64,000 bases of DNA from Asterochloris sp. CNOR1 (lineage: Eukaryota; Chlorophyta; Trebouxiophyceae; Trebouxiales; Trebouxiaceae): assembly GCA_963969365.1 (NCBI GenBank), contig OZ017757.1, positions 2,108,001-2,172,000 of the forward strand. The letters are read 5' to 3'. Below the pieces are notes generated by a model, which saw nothing but the letters and a program-made list of their open reading frames with translations, had not been told where the DNA came from and did no database searches. Made by a program: the position numbers and the translations under genes. How positions within the stretch are numbered: the stretch's first letter is position 1; each line of letters begins with the position of its first letter. Positions 50,829 to 59,810 of the stretch are shown here, piece by piece.

Positions 50829-51041
50829 AGCGTGCTCAGGGCCACAGAATACGGCATACGCCGTATGACGTTCGCCGTACTACAGGCGCTCGTATTGTGT
50901 TCAGCCGCTAACAGTACGGGTTAATACGGGTTTACGTTTGGGGAAAAAACGCCCGTATTGCCCTGGAATTTCCAGCTGGAAATAGCGTTTTGTACGTATT
51001 GCATTCGAGGAGTTGCCGTATTCTGTGGCCCTGAGCGTGCT
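50829..51041. mobile_element. hAT-type MITE (non-autonomous DNA transposon)
   Basis: The 197-bp element at 50837-51033 has perfect 20-bp terminal inverted repeats starting CAGGGCCACAGAATACGG (50837-50856 and 51014-51033). It is flanked by identical 8-bp direct repeats, AGCGTGCT (50829-50836 and 51034-51041). Termini of CAGGG type with an 8-bp target duplication are the signature of the hAT superfamily. It encodes no transposase. Subterminal CGTA/TACG motifs recur inside both ends, as expected for transposase binding. Perfect termini and target duplication indicate a fairly recent insertion. Confidence 0.92.
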
Positions 51042-51619: not shown

Positions 51620-54600
51620 CATACAGCTGAGCAGACGCCAGCGCCATACACGCAGACGCAGGACCGCGCCCCCAGCTGAGGCAGCGTCCAGCGAGAGAGT
51701 CGTTGTGCCGGACATGCCTTCAACCCGGTGAGGCCTGCACCTGTTGCTCGACCTCAGGTTGCTGCTGAGGGTGCAGCTGACTGTGTGCGTGAGCGGTACC
51801 ACCTATCCAATCGGGCACCGAAGTTCACATGTCCAGCTGTGCCAGCCATCCTGCTACAGTGCTCTGCCTGTACAAAGATGCCAGACAACATTCCTGCCTG
51901 CTCTCTCACCATTACCGCAACAATCTGTCGGGCCCAGCCCCAGAGCCTTGCTACATGCCTCTCGTCCCACAGTGCCCTGCTCACCCTGCAGGCCAATGGT
52001 GAGAGGCCGCGGTGGACAGGGGAGGATTGGCCACCAAGCAGACCGAGCAGGGGCCAAAACAAGGGCAACAGCAGCGCCAGCAGCACATCCTGCCGGCGCC
52101 CTGAGCAGGTGACCCCATGCACGCCTTCTGCTATGACGGGATCATCCAGTAGCCCACTACTGGGCCAACATGCGCCACTCACAACTCCCATCTCTTGTAC
52201 CTGACCCTGCTACACTTGCTGCAGGCCTTTGCCTGAACACACATCACGCGCTTGCCACACTGCAGTCACCACATGCAGTTGATGCACACCGGGCACACCG
52301 CAACAAGCCTCACCACACAGCTGCACACCATCGGACTTCTGCAGTGCGCACTGGTTGCAGCCTGGTGCCGCCTGCTGCAGGGAGCATTGTTCCCCCGACC
52401 CTGACCAGGGCGCCCTCACAAAACATACGCACTCTGGCCGTGCAGGGCCTCAGCAGACAGCTCCAGCGGCGCAGTCGGTGGCGACGCATGCCCCCCATGC
52501 CATGCACCATCTCTCTCCTTCTCGTGCATTCAGTAGTGCTCTTGCACCCCGCTGCGCTTGTGGGTGCAGCCCATGCTGCAGGATGACTTGGATGCAGTCA
52601 GTGCCTGCCAGCAGCGCAATCAGCATCTCCCCATAGCCTTCATGCGCAAACAATCCTGTCTGCTTTTGCACTTCTGACTACCCGAGACCCTTAGCGGCAG
52701 GAAGCTTAAACTGGAATTATGGGTAAGCCAAGGGGGCCACGAGCCCACCACCACCACCCACAATCAGCTGCAGACTCCCCAGGTCTGCCCTGGCCGCATC
52801 TCTTCAGGCTGGCCCCCATTGCTGCAGGGAGCCCGAGGCCGAGGGTTGGGAGGTGCAGGAGGATGAAGGGCGTCATGAGGAGCACAGACCTACCATCATG
52901 ACAATCCGTCTCACCGAGGCGCAGAAGAGGAAGATGTATGAGCCAGAGGGCGCCAAGCTGGAGCGCAAACTGGACAGGGAGGACGCTGAGACCGCCTCAG
53001 ATGTGGCAGGACTTTACGGCGCGGACGGGACCTTCATCCCTGCAGACATTTCCGTCAGCCGCAGCAGGAGGCCCCAGAGGGAGCAGGAATCGCATGGACC
53101 CTGGCAGCCGCCCCCTGACCTCAACTCGTTTGAGGTGAGAGGAGGCTGCAGTGCGCCTTTGTCCAGCCAGACTGCATGCCCAGCCACTTGGCCTGCCTGG
53201 CCCAGGTGTCGATGCTGTGCAGTGCCACTCCTTGCTGCCTGCCTGCCTGCCTGCCATTGACAGAAGACCTGGGCTTTGTTCTCCTCCCTCCAGCCTGCCT
53301 GCCTGCTTGCCTGACAACAGGTAGAACATGTTCTCTCAAGCCTGTGGGCCCTGCCTGCAGGCATTCCCCATGCCTGGGCGGGGAGCAGTGCAGCCTGCAT
53401 GCCACGTCCCGACAGGTGAGCGTCCCAGCAGCTGCTGCATGTCCCACCCCAGCCCCCCTGCCTTAGCAAGACGGTGTGCAGCAGAGCATCCTCTGCTGAG
53501 TTGCCCAGGAAGCTGGCCTCCAGCATTCTGTTTTGAACTGGACTGGTTCTCACCACTCAGCTGCTCTATCCACTGACAGCCTGGCTGATGGCCACTTGCT
53601 GCATTGCCGTCACCCCTCCCAAGTTAGCACCTGCCCAGCGCCTAAGTCGCAGCAGCCGGAGCCCTTCACCCACCTCTGCAGGTGCCGCGCCCCAGGCCGC
53701 CACCTCTCAACCTTCTGCGGTACGGCCTACCCCACAGCAGACCTGCACCCGCCTGGACACCCCCAAGGCTAAGAGCTTTGCGGAGGTTGCCAAGCAGACC
53801 CCTGTCCCCCTGCCACACCAGCGGGCAAATCAGCGCATGGCAGCCCAGCAGGCAGAGGCCCCCGCCGCCTCCTCTCAGCAGCAGCAGATGCAGGAGAAGG
53901 GTGGTTGGGCGGCCCGTGCGGAGGCTGAGCGGCGCCGGCGGCAGGAGGTGGCTGCCAGGGCTGACGCTGCAAACCCGCAGCATGAGTCAGCGGTCCGATC
54001 TGCAGCACAGGCTGCAGAAGTTCAAGAGTCCATTGTGGGGACAGAGCCAGCTGCTGCTGAGGCGGCAGTGAAGCTGACCGTTGCGCAGGCTGCAGAGGAG
54101 CCTGGAAGGCAGGACCTTGCCCAGCCATCTGCAGACCCGAGCCAGCAGGGGAAGCAAGGTGAGGAGGGGGCACAGGTGGCAGCAGCAGCCAGCAGTCATG
54201 CTCCACAGCTGGCTGTCAATGCGTCGCTGGCCTGGCAGCTGCAGCCAGAGGGCGCTTCAGCCACTGAGGGGGCCGCACCAGCCGCGGCCAGCGCCCCCAA
54301 CGAGGCAGAGGCACAGGCAGCAGTGGAAGCTGCCAGCCTGGTCTCCTCGCAAGGCAACGGCATTGAGGCTGTGGCTAAGCCGCATGAGCAGACTGTCAAG
54401 GACTTGGGCCTGGCCTGTCAGCTGCAGGAGGAAATAAACCCTTGCGTTTCAGGTGTGCTCCAGTGCTGGACAGGTGCATTGGGAAAGCGAAGGGCTACTC
54501 ACAGTCTGCATGTGCTACATGCTGCCTCATTCTTGTGCATGACCCACAGCCCACTTGGGTGATCTTGTGCCTGACAGCTTGCTGAGGTGTCCACTCCACA

Positions 54601-57600
54601 GTCTGCCACAGCTATCTGCTCTGGACTGTGCACATCAGGGCGTCAGCTGCAGTGTGCCTGCCCTGCAGGTGGACGCAGCATCACGGAGGACCCTCCGGAG
54701 AGTGGAGACAAGCTCACCCTGCCGGTGCACCCTGCTGCTGGTGAGCCTCATCGTAGTTCCTGGTTCCTCCATAGTGGTCTGGGTACAGGAGGGTGGGCAG
54801 ACAGTCAGCCCCAAGCAGGAGCAGGCTGTGGTTGCAGGTGAGAGAGAGATGGGCTGCCCTTGTTCATGAGTCAGACAGCAGCAGCCACGGGTGCCGCCCA
54901 AGCTGCAGACGTGCCATCGCTGCGCCTGTTGAATGATGTTGTACAGCTTTCCCTGAGGAGGCCAGACGCAGTTCAGACCTGCAACGCAGCAGGCTCAAGT
55001 TGAGCCCAGCACAGCTTGTCCTGTGCCAGGTTCTTTCCTCTGACAACGGGGTGCTCATTCCTGCAGGCGAGGCTGCCGCTGCGGCCCCTGCTTGGGTCCA
55101 GGCAGGACGCCAGCCCGTGTTTGGCAGTCTCACCGCTGCCGACATCAGCGCCCAAGCAGTGCCATTGGCCCGGGCCAGGACCAGGGAGCGGGCTTCTGGA
55201 GACAGTGCCCAAAGCTTTGACCTGAATGCCCCAGGCCTCCCCGTCCCTGGAGGGATTGCAGGTGAGGAACAGATGAGCTGCGTCTGCTCCTGAGGTGCTA
55301 CAATGCAGCCTGCTTGTTAAAGAATCAGACAGCAGCAGCCATGGGTGCTGCCCAAGCTGCAGATGCCCCGTCTGTTGAGCGTGCTGAAGGGTGCTCTACA
55401 GCTCTCCTTCATTAGGCCAGACGCAGCCAGACCTGCAATGCAGCAGGCTCAGCCTGAGCCCAGCACAGCTTGTCTTCCGCCAGGGTTTTGCGCTGTCGAC
55501 AAGGTGCTCGTTCCTGCAGGCGAGGCTGCCGATGTGCCCCCTGCTTGGGTCCTGGCGGGACGTCTGCCCAACTTTGGCAGTCTCACCGCTGCCGACATCA
55601 GCGCTCGGGCAGGGCCACTGCCCCTTGTCAGAACCAGGGAACATGCATCTTGGGACGGTGCCGCAAGCTTTGTTCTGAATGCCCCAGGCCTTCCCGTGTC
55701 CGAAGAGATTGCAGGTGACAAACAGACAAGCTGCCCTTCGCATCTGCTCCTGAAGTGCGTGCAATGCAGCCTGCTTGTTCAGGAGTCAACAGACAGCAGC
55801 AGCCATGGGTGCAGCTGCAGACGCCCATCTGTTGAGCCTGCTGAAGGATGCTCTACAGCTTTCCCTCAAGGTCGCCAGACGCAGTTCAGACCTGCAACGC
55901 AGCAGGCTCAGCTTGAGCCCAGCACAGCTTGTCTTCCGCCAGGTTCTTTCCTCTGTTGACAAGGTGCTCGTTCCTGCAGGCGAGGCTGCCGCTGCGCCCC
56001 CTGCTTGGGTCCTGGGACGCCAGCCCATTTTTGGCAGTTTCACCGCAGCCCACATCAGCGCTCGAGCAGGGCCACTGCCCCTGGTCAAGACCATGCAGCA
56101 AGCACATGAGGATGGCGCTGGCAATCCCCCTCTGAGTGCGGCACAGTAAGCCGACTCTCAAGCCCTTTTCAGCACTGCTTTGCTCAGGCTGTTGGCAGAG
56201 CAGTGCTGCTGCTGTCGAGCACGGTGCCGATGTCCGGGGGGGCCGCTGTGCCCCCACTTGGCTCAGCATCAGCTGCCACAGCAGCCTTTTGCCAGGAGGT
56301 AGTGTGCGCCCCTTACAGCAAAGACGCTACACAGCGGACAATGCCATGGCGCAGGCTGCCAGCAGGCCAGGGCATCCCGCTGTGGTGCTCAGGTTGCCCT
56401 GAGGCTTGACAGCATGAGGACAGCAAGTGTCTTGCTGCCCACCTGCAGGCAGGAAGAGTGCGCGAAGGTGGTCTCTGGATCCCCCTCCTCTGTCACTGGC
56501 CCAGAGGGGCCAGTGCAGGAGCCACAAACGCCCGGCCTGGGGGTTGCAGTGCAGATGGGCAGCAGCCTGCACAGCCCGAGCCAGGGAAGCAGTTCAGGTA
56601 CGTACCCTGTCTGCCACACAGATGGCTTAGGTCGCCAGCAGACAAGCCTGTCCCGCTCAGGAAACTGCCAAAGGGCTGCTGTCAAGCGACAGTCTATTGG
56701 CAAGTTGAGGCTGCTTCTATTTGGTTTGATACGAGCTGCACAGGGTTGGCCTGCCTCATGCTGCAAGGGCTTGTCTTGGGGCACAAGTTGTGTACTTGGC
56801 TGCTGAGCTGAGGCCGCCTGGTTGCCACAGACAGGCTGAAGTTTGCTGCTGGATGTTGGTAGCACAAATGCTGAGCCGTTCAAGCAGCAGGCAATTCAGG
56901 CACATGTGACATAACCTGTGTGGTACGGAGCCCCAAGGACCAGGCTGCTACTGTGCAACACGCCTGGGCGTGCCAGGCTCAGAAGAGGGCAGTGTCAGGC
57001 TGCGCTGCAGAGTGTGCACCGTGTTATGCGGGTTCAATGGCCAACTCATCGGTTAGTTCCAGCTGCAAGGCTCGACGCAGTGGAGCCAGTGAAGAGTCTA
57101 GCTGACGTGCCTTCCCCTCCTGTGCTGTGCAGGCGCCCTGTCACGAGAGAACTCGCCACAGAATACAACATCCCATGCGGAGCCTGAGCAGGTGGCTGCC
57201 GACACCCAGCTTGTGGTGGAGGTGGGTGACAGGCTCTGGTAGCTGCTCAAGCCTTGAATGCTGTCAGGTGGCTCTGTGGGAAGTGCTGCTGCTGCAAGCC
57301 ACCAGCTGGCTGCCTGCACTGGCACTCCTCAGCTGCTGACTGTCCAGGTGACGATGCTCCAATCTGCTTTGGGTGAGGCCTGCCGCCTGCTCATCAGAGC
57401 TGCTTCCTGGGGTCATGACACCAGCTGCCCATTTGTGAGAAGGCTGGGCATGTGGCGCAGGTTCCAGCATGCCTGCCAGGGGAGGCGCCTGCCTGGTGGC
57501 CGTCGACCTGATGTGTGCCAGTGTGGCTGCCCTGCTGCTGAAATGCTGCTGGCTGGCGTCTGCAGGTGACCAGGTACGCCCAGAAGAGGCGCGACCGGCA

Positions 57601-59810
57601 GGCAGGGGCCTGCTACATGTGCCACAGGGCTGGGCACAGGGCGGCAGGTGGGCAGCACGTGACAATCTTGCAGGTGCAAAGGTGTTGTTTTCCCACTGCA
57701 GTCTTGCAGTCTCACTGGGGCCCTGCTGTAGCAAGCTGGTTGCCAGCTGGGCTACCAGAAGCAGAGCCAAGTGGACACTCTGCTGACTGGCTAAGGTGGC
57801 CTGGGCAGTTGCGACACCAACGTGCCTGCTTCTCACCTTCAGACTGCCCACTGCACCTGGAGAACCGAGGGCGACCAGGCCTGCCAAAGGAGGGGCAGCG
57901 CTCAGGTGAGGTCTGTTGATCAATGGACTGCTCATGCGCATCTGCTGCAAAGCATTCACTTTCACCTGCTGCCCTACGTGCTGCCACTAGTTGCTGCCAC
58001 TGTGGCTGCCGCTGGCGGGCATTCGCATGCCTGATGCGGACTCTGCTTCCGTTTGATAAATCCAAATTGCCAGCGACATGCCTGCTGTGGGCTCTGCTGC
58101 ATGACATCTCCACTTGTCAAAGGCTGTCCTGGTCGCTCATACTCAGGTCGCTAAAATTGCTCATCGCATTCCCTGTGTTCTTGCAGGACACCTTCCCAAC
58201 ACTGCCATCACCACCAACAGCGCAGTCATCATGGACCAGCCAGCAGCCATGATTTCAAAGTCATCAGCGACACTGGCGCCCACCGACGAGCTGCGCCCAG
58301 CAGAGACGCCACCCCCAGGCTGCCCTGAGCCTGTGCAGGCAGCGCCTGCTGGGGGAGTGCCCGACCAGAGCGCAGTGCCAGCGGCCTCCGCCGTGCCCAG
58401 CCCTGTGCACACCCGTGGCCAGAGCGTGCAGGGTGGCCCCTTGCCAGGCTTCCAGACAGACAGTCACGCCCCAGCGCCCATGCAGGCGGCGCACCCCGAG
58501 AGCACCCAGCTGACCCCCAGCCTGCCTCAGCAGCAGCAGCGAGAGGCTGGCGGTCTGCCATGGTTCAGTCATGGCCTGCCCATGCTGCTTGTAGATGGGC
58601 AGTGGGTGCCGCCCAAGTGGCCTGCACCTCCGGGCCAGCCTCGGCCCAAGTTGCCACACAGCAGGTGGCAACAGCTGTACCATGACATCATGGCTGCCCA
58701 CCCCGAGTGGGGCGACTCGCAGGAGGGCAGGCAGCGGGGGCAGATTGCCCTGCAGCAGATGCAGGTGGAGGCTGCAAGGAAAGCCTTTGGGCAGCCTGGG
58801 GACAGCCACCTGCAGCAACCCGAGGCCAGGGTGCAGCAGCCAGCCGCGCAGACGGGGGTCCACTCCGTGCAGGGGCTTAGCGGCAGGTGGTACCATACAG
58901 TGCCGCTCAAGCCTGAGCCGCAGCCCTGGTGCACCTTCTGCAAGGAGCAGGGGCATAGCACCCTGGGCTGTCTGCCCTTTGCCTACCCAGCTCTGCTGGG
59001 GGACAACGGCTGGGACCCGGTCACTGGCGAGATTGTGAGCGGCACACACCCACCTGGTCACCTGCATGCAAGGGCCAGCTGTGTATGCAGTTTGCACAGT
59101 CTCCTTGTGTTCTGCAGCCACCAGAGGTTCTTGTCGGCAGCCAGAGAGGGTGTCTGCCACTGATTGAGCGAAATCTTCCTGCATGTCGCATTCAAGACCT
59201 GAGGTCTGCATGTTCACCCTCCACATGGGAAGAGCTCCAGTTGCCGCTGTTGGCCGTTCAGGTGCCCAGTGTAGGGCCTTGGGCAGAGCCAGCAGGCGGC
59301 CCTGAGGACCAGCAGCAGCACCCGGCCTCAGGCAGGGCGCTCTCGGCGGAGCGGGTGACGAGTGGAGCGGGGCCCCCGCAGCAGGAGACACGCCACAATG
59401 CAGTGAGCAGCAGCTGCCTGCCTGCAACCCCATCTGCTGGCTATCACCGCTGTGCCTGCTGCAAACTCAGCTCTCTTGAGCACCTGAACTTTGCAGGGCG
59501 GATGTGGCCCCTGGGCTGTGCAGCAGCATTGCAGCGCAGGCGCATGTGCTCCTCTCGCTTGTGTGGCCTCTCTCATCAGTCTTTGCACCATGCCATGCAG
59601 GCTGCAGGCAGCGCCGTGCAGCTGCAGGCCTCTGCCGACGGCCTGACAGCAGAGCCGAACCATGTGCCAGCAGCCAACAGGGAAGGGCGCCAGCGCCATC
59701 GTGGCAGCAGGGGCAGCAGGCCTCGCGGCAGGGCCGGCCGCTGCAACCAGCTGCGCCGGCAAGGTGAGGCCTGTGCAGCTGCAATCATGTATTTCTGCAA
59801 GAATTTGTAA
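51620..59810 (+). CDS. protein with two CCHC zinc knuckles, tandem exon repeats and RG-rich end
   Basis: Not matched to a named family; composition suggests RNA binding. Securely phased exons: 52828-53134, 53361-53415, 53682-54452, about 54669-54740, 55067-55261, 55520-55714, 55980-56145, about 56451-56598, about 57132-57222, 57566-57647, 57843-57905, 58187-59034, about 59262-59400, about 59601-59764. A less certain 5' exon, ending PDMPSTR, lies at about 51630-51729, and other exons may lie between 51990 and 52570. Order: charged N-terminus (TEAQKRKMYEPEGAKLER); Ala/Gln/Glu-rich region; three copies of a 65-residue Pro/Ala module; knuckle 1 CYMCHRAGHRAADC, split by an intron; a Pro/Gln-rich part with WFSHGLPMLLVDGQWVPPKW; knuckle 2 CTFCKEQGHSTLGC; and a basic RG-rich end (RGSRGSRPRGRAGR). 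Both knuckles fit C-x2-C-x4-H-x4-C. The start is unknown. The stop at 59808-59810 overlaps a TGTAA, but the last exon border is uncertain. Confidence 0.75.
53238..53260. repeat. TGCC microsatellite in intron
   Basis: Five consecutive TGCC-type units (CTGCCTGCCTGCCTGCC) occur in the intron after 53134. A second short run, CCTGCCTGCCTGCTTGCC, lies at about 53293-53310. Confidence 0.6.
55067..56145 (+). repeat. tandem triplication of one exon with its intron
   Basis: Three exon copies, 55067-55261, 55520-55714 and 55980-56145, start 453 and 460 bp apart. Copies 1 and 2 are both exactly 195 nt, and all three open with GGCGAGGCTGCC-like sequence and share GSLTAADISA or its variants. The flanking introns are repeated too (ACAGCAGCAGCCA, AGCCCAGCACAGCTTGTC). 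The first two exons are phase 1-1, so adding or losing a copy keeps the reading frame. Copy 3 lacks one codon and ends differently, leaving in phase 2. Confidence 0.88.

Follow-up and report, generated by a model that had tools for sequence, protein, structure and literature searches.

Gene model and tandem array

The window analysed here is a 64,000-nt (64-kb) stretch of the Asterochloris sp. CNOR1 genome, and a predicted gene on its forward strand contains three head-to-tail units of approximately 453 nt each (54838-56145). Tandem Repeats Finder, run on the 64-kb window, returned 15 rows, and the row at 54859-56087 is alone in having a period above 21 (period 453, 2.7 copies, 82% matches, score 1624). 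Repeat families D1-D9 agree with Tandem Repeats Finder on this tandem array, which is real and far beyond chance. Each unit consists of a complete pre-existing intron and the exon downstream of it, and the array starts 5' of 55067; the range of 55067-56145 given in a sequence-only reading is thus confirmed as an array but extended, as the unit also takes in the intron upstream of copy 1 (54838-55066). The modelled features, with exon limits according to predicted splicing, are:

52829-53134, + strand, first modelled exon (its 5' limit and the gene start are not fixed in the model)
53361-53415, + strand, upstream exon of the same gene model
53682-54452, + strand, upstream exon of the same gene model
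54669-54740, + strand, upstream exon of the same gene model
54775-54837, + strand, exon A, upstream of the array (13-exon model, intron-start and array alignments)
54838-55066, + strand, intron 0, 229 nt, first of the three intron copies (alignments)
55067-55261, + strand, exon copy 1, 195 nt, phase 1-1, putatively chimeric (alignments, change-point test)
55262-55519, + strand, intron 1, 258 nt, second of the three intron copies (alignment)
55520-55714, + strand, exon copy 2, 195 nt, phase 1-1, putatively chimeric (alignments, change-point test)
55715-55979, + strand, intron 2, 265 nt, last of the three intron copies (alignment)
55980-56145, + strand, exon copy 3, 166 nt, phase 1-2, paralog-like end, one codon deleted (model, alignments)
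56146-56448, + strand, intron after copy 3, GTAAGC ... TGCAG (13-exon model)
56449-56597, + strand, downstream exon
57133-57221, + strand, downstream exon
57566-57647, + strand, downstream exon
57843-57905, + strand, downstream exon
58187-59034, + strand, downstream exon

The spliced 13-exon model has no stop in 1018 codons, compared with 11 and 24 stops in the two alternative frames, and all 12 introns are GT-AG. Seven of the ten non-array exons are equal in length to their counterparts in a paralog (described below) or differ by a multiple of 3, the exceptions being exon E4, exon A, and E11. Exon lengths, the open frame, and the pattern of gaps support coding and splicing as modelled. Within the array, inner exon gaps are 3 nt in three of three pairwise rows, all of them one event (the loss of a codon in copy 3), and gaps in the array introns are multiples of 3 in 9 of 37 pairwise rows, which are repeated counts of fewer events; with only one inner indel among the exon copies, the indel pattern carries little weight on the coding question. 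Intron 0 lacks 30-38 nt that are found in the other array introns and in the C3 paralog.

The sequence TCCTGCAG directly precedes all three exon starts (55067, 55520, and 55980). Copies 1 and 2 align as exons of the same length (195 nt) and phase (1-1), and copy 3 has an inner 3-nt deletion relative to copies 1 and 2 and to both C3 paralogs; both points, the latter as the loss of one codon, had been read correctly from the sequence. The accompanying description of three 195-nt exon copies is right about the three-unit array but not about copy 3, which is 166 nt long with a different end. The donor of copy 3 (GTAAGC, 56146) lies elsewhere than those of copies 1 and 2 and permits the exit in phase 2 that had been proposed, and the next exon (56449) is predicted to enter in phase 2. 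If the intron after copy 3 were retained, an in-frame TAA would be read at 56147. The copy 2 donor (GTGACA, 55715) is the sole donor of 13 in the gene model without a G at +5, and to judge from this motif copy 2 may be skipped in part, or intron 2 retained in part.

The exon copies are 73-81% identical, and the array introns are 77.5-89% identical to one another and 76-83% identical to the paralog intron. With this much divergence between copies the array is neither fresh nor an artefact, and the word "live", applied to it earlier, does not suit copies that have diverged and give no sign of ongoing change. An assembly artefact of identical reads is ruled out by differences at 19-27% of exon sites. 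In the 5' part of the exon, dS between copies is 0.13-0.27 and dN/dS is 0.47-1.25; for the entire exon the ratio is 0.49-0.62, which suggests weak constraint between copies.

Single-copy paralogs on contig C3

The genome searched comprises 56.38 Mb in 21 contigs. A DNA search gave at least four matches, in the array and in two paralogs on contig C3, and among the best candidates scored three protein queries match only the window and the two C3 places. An introner or other mobile intron was considered and rejected: the intron sequence is not dispersed, and its genome matches (the counts being lower bounds) are the array and the two C3 paralogs. The paralogs lie near 1.314-1.324 Mb (L013, reverse strand) and 1.377-1.387 Mb (L014), about 61 kb apart, as an inverted pair in the same gene context. 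Over 9.4 kb the two share 95.6% identity, and some 8 kb of the window is similar to them, with gaps.

Along the C3 pair, taken in 500-nt steps, the central 4 kb are 98.6-99.8% identical, the 3 kb before that 96.8-98.8%, and the outermost steps 92.4-93.6%, a gradient possibly due to gene conversion between the two arms. Both copies on C3 appear to be damaged: the E4 counterpart no longer has an AG at its acceptor (tgcgg) and contains a TAG (by eye), the L014 matches to exon E3 include a TGA and a TAG, and L013 has a frame shift within E11.

Each paralog has one intron (242 nt) and one exon (169 nt, phase 1-2), identical in both, in place of the three units of the window gene. This exon, referred to as exon B, exits in phase 2 (GTGAGC) at a place aligned with the copy 3 donor, and the ends of copy 3 and the paralog exon align without a gap. 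The comparison covers the window gene and these two paralogs, with a single copy as the putative ancestral state.

Relative to the paralog, the window gene has two extra 195-nt exons. The sequence-only reading saw here a protein growing by in-frame tandem duplication, and the 195-nt coding unit, the 1018-codon open model, and the single-copy paralogs speak for that part of it. Exon E3 is 771 nt in the window gene vs 1461 nt in the paralog, and the paralog includes three exon-like pieces (148, 113, and 220 nt) to which nothing in the window model corresponds, so the window gene did not simply grow; these differences are given without direction, as gain or loss on either side. Seven exons pooled (E1, E2, E3, E7, E8, E9, and E10, leaving out E4, A, the array exons, and E11) give dN 0.24, dS 0.39, and a ratio of 0.63 between the window gene and the paralog.

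Exon ends and origin of the array

Copies 1 and 2 are 85-89% identical to copy 3 over the first 111-123 nt and 41-53% identical thereafter. The change point between copies 1 and 3 falls after column 123 (102/120 matches, then 19/46) and that between copies 2 and 3 after column 111 (96/108, then 31/58), each with 0/2000 shuffles, and the remaining four of the six pairs have no break in this test (p 0.31-0.67). As the pair of copies 1 and 2 and the pair of copy 3 and the paralog are both without a break, the fall is not that of a generally fast region; a rate burst on the single branch leading to copies 1 and 2 is possible. The array copies are 83-87% identical to one another over the first 118 nt and 68-69% identical to the paralog. 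Over the 51 nt that precede the B-type donor, copy 3 matches the paralog at 35/51 positions and copy 1 matches copy 2 at 40/51; copies 1 and 2 match copy 3 at 23/51 and 27/51, and the paralog at 28/51 and 29/51, respectively. Copies 1 and 2 have no GT at the bases aligned with the B-type donor.

In fixed register, the tails of copies 1 and 2 are more like the B tail than shuffled sequence is (23-29/51, p <=0.003, vs a mean of about 13 for shuffles); the junction thus lacks a sharp limit, and exon A may have supplied only the last ~14 bases. Free local alignment of the 40-nt tails of copies 1 and 2 detected no similarity to the end of paralog B and its intron (p 0.39 and 0.32) or to the end of copy 3 and its intron (p 0.25 and 0.46).

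Exon A has a donor (GTGAGA, 54838) homologous to those of copies 1 and 2. In all six pairings of introns 0, 1, and 2 and the paralog A-B intron, the intron starts are homologous from the donor onward (local scores 24-40, shuffled means 9-12, 0/1000 shuffles each), and by this homology the donors at which copies 1 and 2 end are copies of the exon A donor. When the same four intron starts were paired with the two introns that follow B, seven of the eight pairings gave p 0.031 to 0.71 and the remaining one, intron 0 vs the intron after copy 3, gave p 0.013. Immediately before the donor and beyond the CAG, copy 1 matches exon A of the paralog at 9/11 positions (p 0.005) and copy 2 at 7/11 (p 0.010), and both copies match the window's own exon A at 6/11 (p 0.22 and 0.023, respectively). 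The 40-nt tails give p 0.011 (copy 1) and p 0.097 (copy 2) by free local alignment to paralog exon A, and p 0.58 and 0.75 to the window's exon A, with the compared segment placed one base too far right. The length of exon A carried in the unit is small or uncertain.

The start of the intron after copy 3 has no detectable similarity to the paralog intron after B (p 0.76), and blastn found no match for 56119-56289; the window gene also lacks the exons that the paralog has there. Because the following introns are dissimilar, it is the exon tails that equate the copy 3 donor with the paralog B donor.

Exon A was also considered as an ancient copy of exon B. Paralog A and B share a stretch that agrees in 20/22 columns (counted by eye), and the local score exceeds shuffles for paralog B vs its own exon A (47; p 0.003), for paralog B vs the window's exon A (p 0.002), and for copy 1 vs the window's exon A (p 0.016), the other five of the eight A-B comparisons giving p 0.07-0.35. 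This candidate was rejected, as a score of 47 or more was also reached in 3/106 control windows of the same gene (overlapping windows in two other exons) and in 6/1380 genome windows.

These observations are probably best explained by duplication of a phase-1 intron together with parts of both flanking exons, from which a symmetric junction exon would follow by necessity. In a fast-evolving gene, the phase-1 intron between exon A and exon B would have been duplicated in tandem along with terminal sequence of A and the first part of B, and a second copying of the unit would have followed, an order that we infer; the intron distances (K2P 0.117 for introns 1-2, 0.178 for 0-2, and 0.271 for 0-1) do not settle the order of the two copying steps. 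The acceptor side of B would thereby have been joined to the donor side of A, at a junction placed only approximately, to give a new chimeric exon whose two ends border copies of one intron and whose phases would be equal, here 1-1. The coding part of the unit, at 195 nt a multiple of 3, would keep the frame and add about 65 residues per copy, and the last unit (copy 3) would retain B's own asymmetric 1-2 exit. A B-type phase-2 donor that was read through would give an immediate in-frame stop, and the chimeric exons would have had to lose it. Since both exon ends border the same intron, phase symmetry would be a by-product of the duplication and not its precondition, and the geometry of the junction would yield both the 1-1 phases of copies 1 and 2 and the 1-2 phases of copy 3, with no need for copy 3 to have decayed. 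With a single copy as the presumed ancestral state, it is probably the symmetric copies 1 and 2 that were altered, the paralog exons being copy-3-like.

Copies 1 and 2 might alternatively be optional or mutually exclusive exons of an alternative splicing cassette and not constitutive. Both are 195 nt and 1-1, so that any combination keeps the frame, and copy 2 has the one donor of 13 that lacks G at +5; copy 3, by contrast, is not skippable in frame, and at most copies 1 and 2 could be optional. We regard such splicing as rather unlikely, and as regards origin it is compatible with the intron-spanning duplication.

The array could be older than the split from C3, as the tails of copies 1 and 2 are equally far from copy 3 (23 and 27 matches of 51) and from the paralog (28 and 29). 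On this account the common ancestor with the C3 pair had both exon types, the C3 lineage lost the type of copies 1 and 2, and the window gene homogenised its introns and exon fronts while the tails kept the old difference. The 35/51 matches shared by copy 3 and the paralog in the tail fit an older array, as do tail dS values that are saturated for copy 1 vs copy 3, 1.97 for copy 2 vs copy 3, and 0.50 for copy 3 vs the paralog, and an intron 0 that is nearly as distant from intron 1 (K2P 0.271) as from the paralog intron (0.285). It is nevertheless unlikely: a runs test found no long shared tract between units 1 and 3 or units 2 and 3 (p 0.80 and 0.78), a 21-22 nt stretch common to the three array introns is missing in both C3 copies, the exon fronts are more alike inside the array (83-87%) than to the paralog (68-69%), and an extra loss is required. 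Gene conversion between units was rejected as a separate candidate, its sole significant run being the exon tail of units 1 and 2 (p 0.008), which is expected from a shared tail.

The sequence-only reading implied that a ready-made symmetric 1-1 exon, with flanking pieces of intron, was copied whole twice and that the end of copy 3 decayed later. The equal length and 1-1 phase of copies 1 and 2 agree with this, and the dissimilarity between the intron start after copy 3 and that of the paralog (p 0.76) is compatible with a re-made copy 3 end. We consider it distinctly improbable and do not retain that claim, as both single-copy paralogs have a 1-2 exon (169 nt) whose end aligns with that of copy 3 and whose tail matches copy 3 at 35/51 (23/51 and 27/51 for copies 1 and 2 vs copy 3). 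Moreover, repeat homology extends up to the intron 0 donor and ends within copy 3, placing the limits of the unit at or inside exons; copies 1 and 2 have donors that are part of copies of the intron downstream of exon A; and the copies do not share both exon ends, copy 3 being 29 nt shorter.

That the region is not coding, as a decaying gene or an unspliced repeat, is very improbable: the pooled dN/dS of 0.63 over seven exons vs the paralog, the frame damage in both C3 copies, and the lack of a convincing database family for the protein would suit it, but the 13 exons of the window model are fully open with GT-AG introns, and seven of ten non-array exons match their paralog counterparts in length or differ by a multiple of 3.

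Precedents, protein product, and neighbouring features

Two tandem internal duplications are known from Arabidopsis TOUCH3 (Knowles & McLysaght 2006, as described in PMC4974935). By that description, a whole pre-existing intron was duplicated in tandem with exonic sequence from both sides, twice, which resembles the intron-spanning duplication proposed here. Downstream exonic sequence in the unit is present here as the first 111-123 nt of the exon, and single-copy relatives are present as the two C3 paralogs with one copy each. The present case differs from the account of TOUCH3 in gene and lineage, in the little upstream exon that is carried, and in a junction that is not exactly placed. The internal gene duplications of Gao & Lynch 2009 (mentioned in PMC4974935), which contain entire introns, are, by the citing description, likewise segmental and intragenic. 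Intron gain through tandem duplication of an AGGT-containing exon segment (the Rogers model) and its variant in potato RdRp (PMC4974935, PMC2891723), in the form given there, share with the array an intragenic tandem duplication that alters exon-intron structure; in those cases a new intron comes from exonic or boundary sequence, whereas here an existing intron was multiplied. The portions of the open-licence literature consulted carry no statement of the consequence for phase symmetry, which is not claimed to be unpublished.

In a survey of 20 10-kb stretches of the same genome, 3/20 contain a tandem self-match of at least 100 nt, and one of the 20 has a tandem offset of the size of an exon plus an intron (about 404 nt, 81% identical; L026:6184-6987); it contains two open pieces that resemble exons, 153 and 147 nt long (limits by eye, other donors possible). 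As an example of a known route of gene lengthening, the array is clear but fairly ordinary.

An excess of symmetric exons is known. We tentatively suggest, as a possibility that falls short of being probable, that symmetric, expandable exons can arise in one step from asymmetric exons by intron-spanning duplication: a junction exon with equal phases (here 1-1, from a 1-2 exon and its upstream neighbour) could then be multiplied or skipped in frame. If this were general, part of the excess would stem from duplication geometry and not from selection for duplicable exons. The intuitive view that an exon must be symmetric beforehand would thus be corrected. The mechanism has already been described, and the value of the locus is that of a worked case, in which one gene and its own single-copy paralogs illustrate how duplication around an intron may create frame-keeping exons and add protein, together with a testable claim on the origin of symmetric exons.

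The repeated module is Ala-rich. No Pfam family was found in the three exon copies (one alanine was missing from the query), and a PDB profile search with the module gave a best E of 0.15. In NCBIfam, copy 1 had one weak match that is taken as chance (E 0.0064, 16.1 bits, cut-off 369), and the other three of the four proteins had none. Downstream, two C-X2-C-X4-H-X4-C knuckles were seen by eye (57566-57905 and 58187-59034), one of them split by an intron, and Pfam zf-CCHC (PF00098) matches below its cut-off (E 0.015, 15.9 bits vs 20.8); three other weak Pfam matches are taken as chance. The module would most likely serve as a flexible linker in a possible nucleic-acid-binding protein.

Elsewhere in the window, a 28-nt inverted repeat (50829-51041) with 93% complementary arms and 157 nt between them looks like a small inverted-repeat element. 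Matches to RbcS lie in three pieces on contig C1, one of which matches Rubisco small subunits in PDB, a good number of them labelled chloroplastic and the best from Chlamydomonas, and this three-piece arrangement suggests a nuclear, intron-bearing gene.
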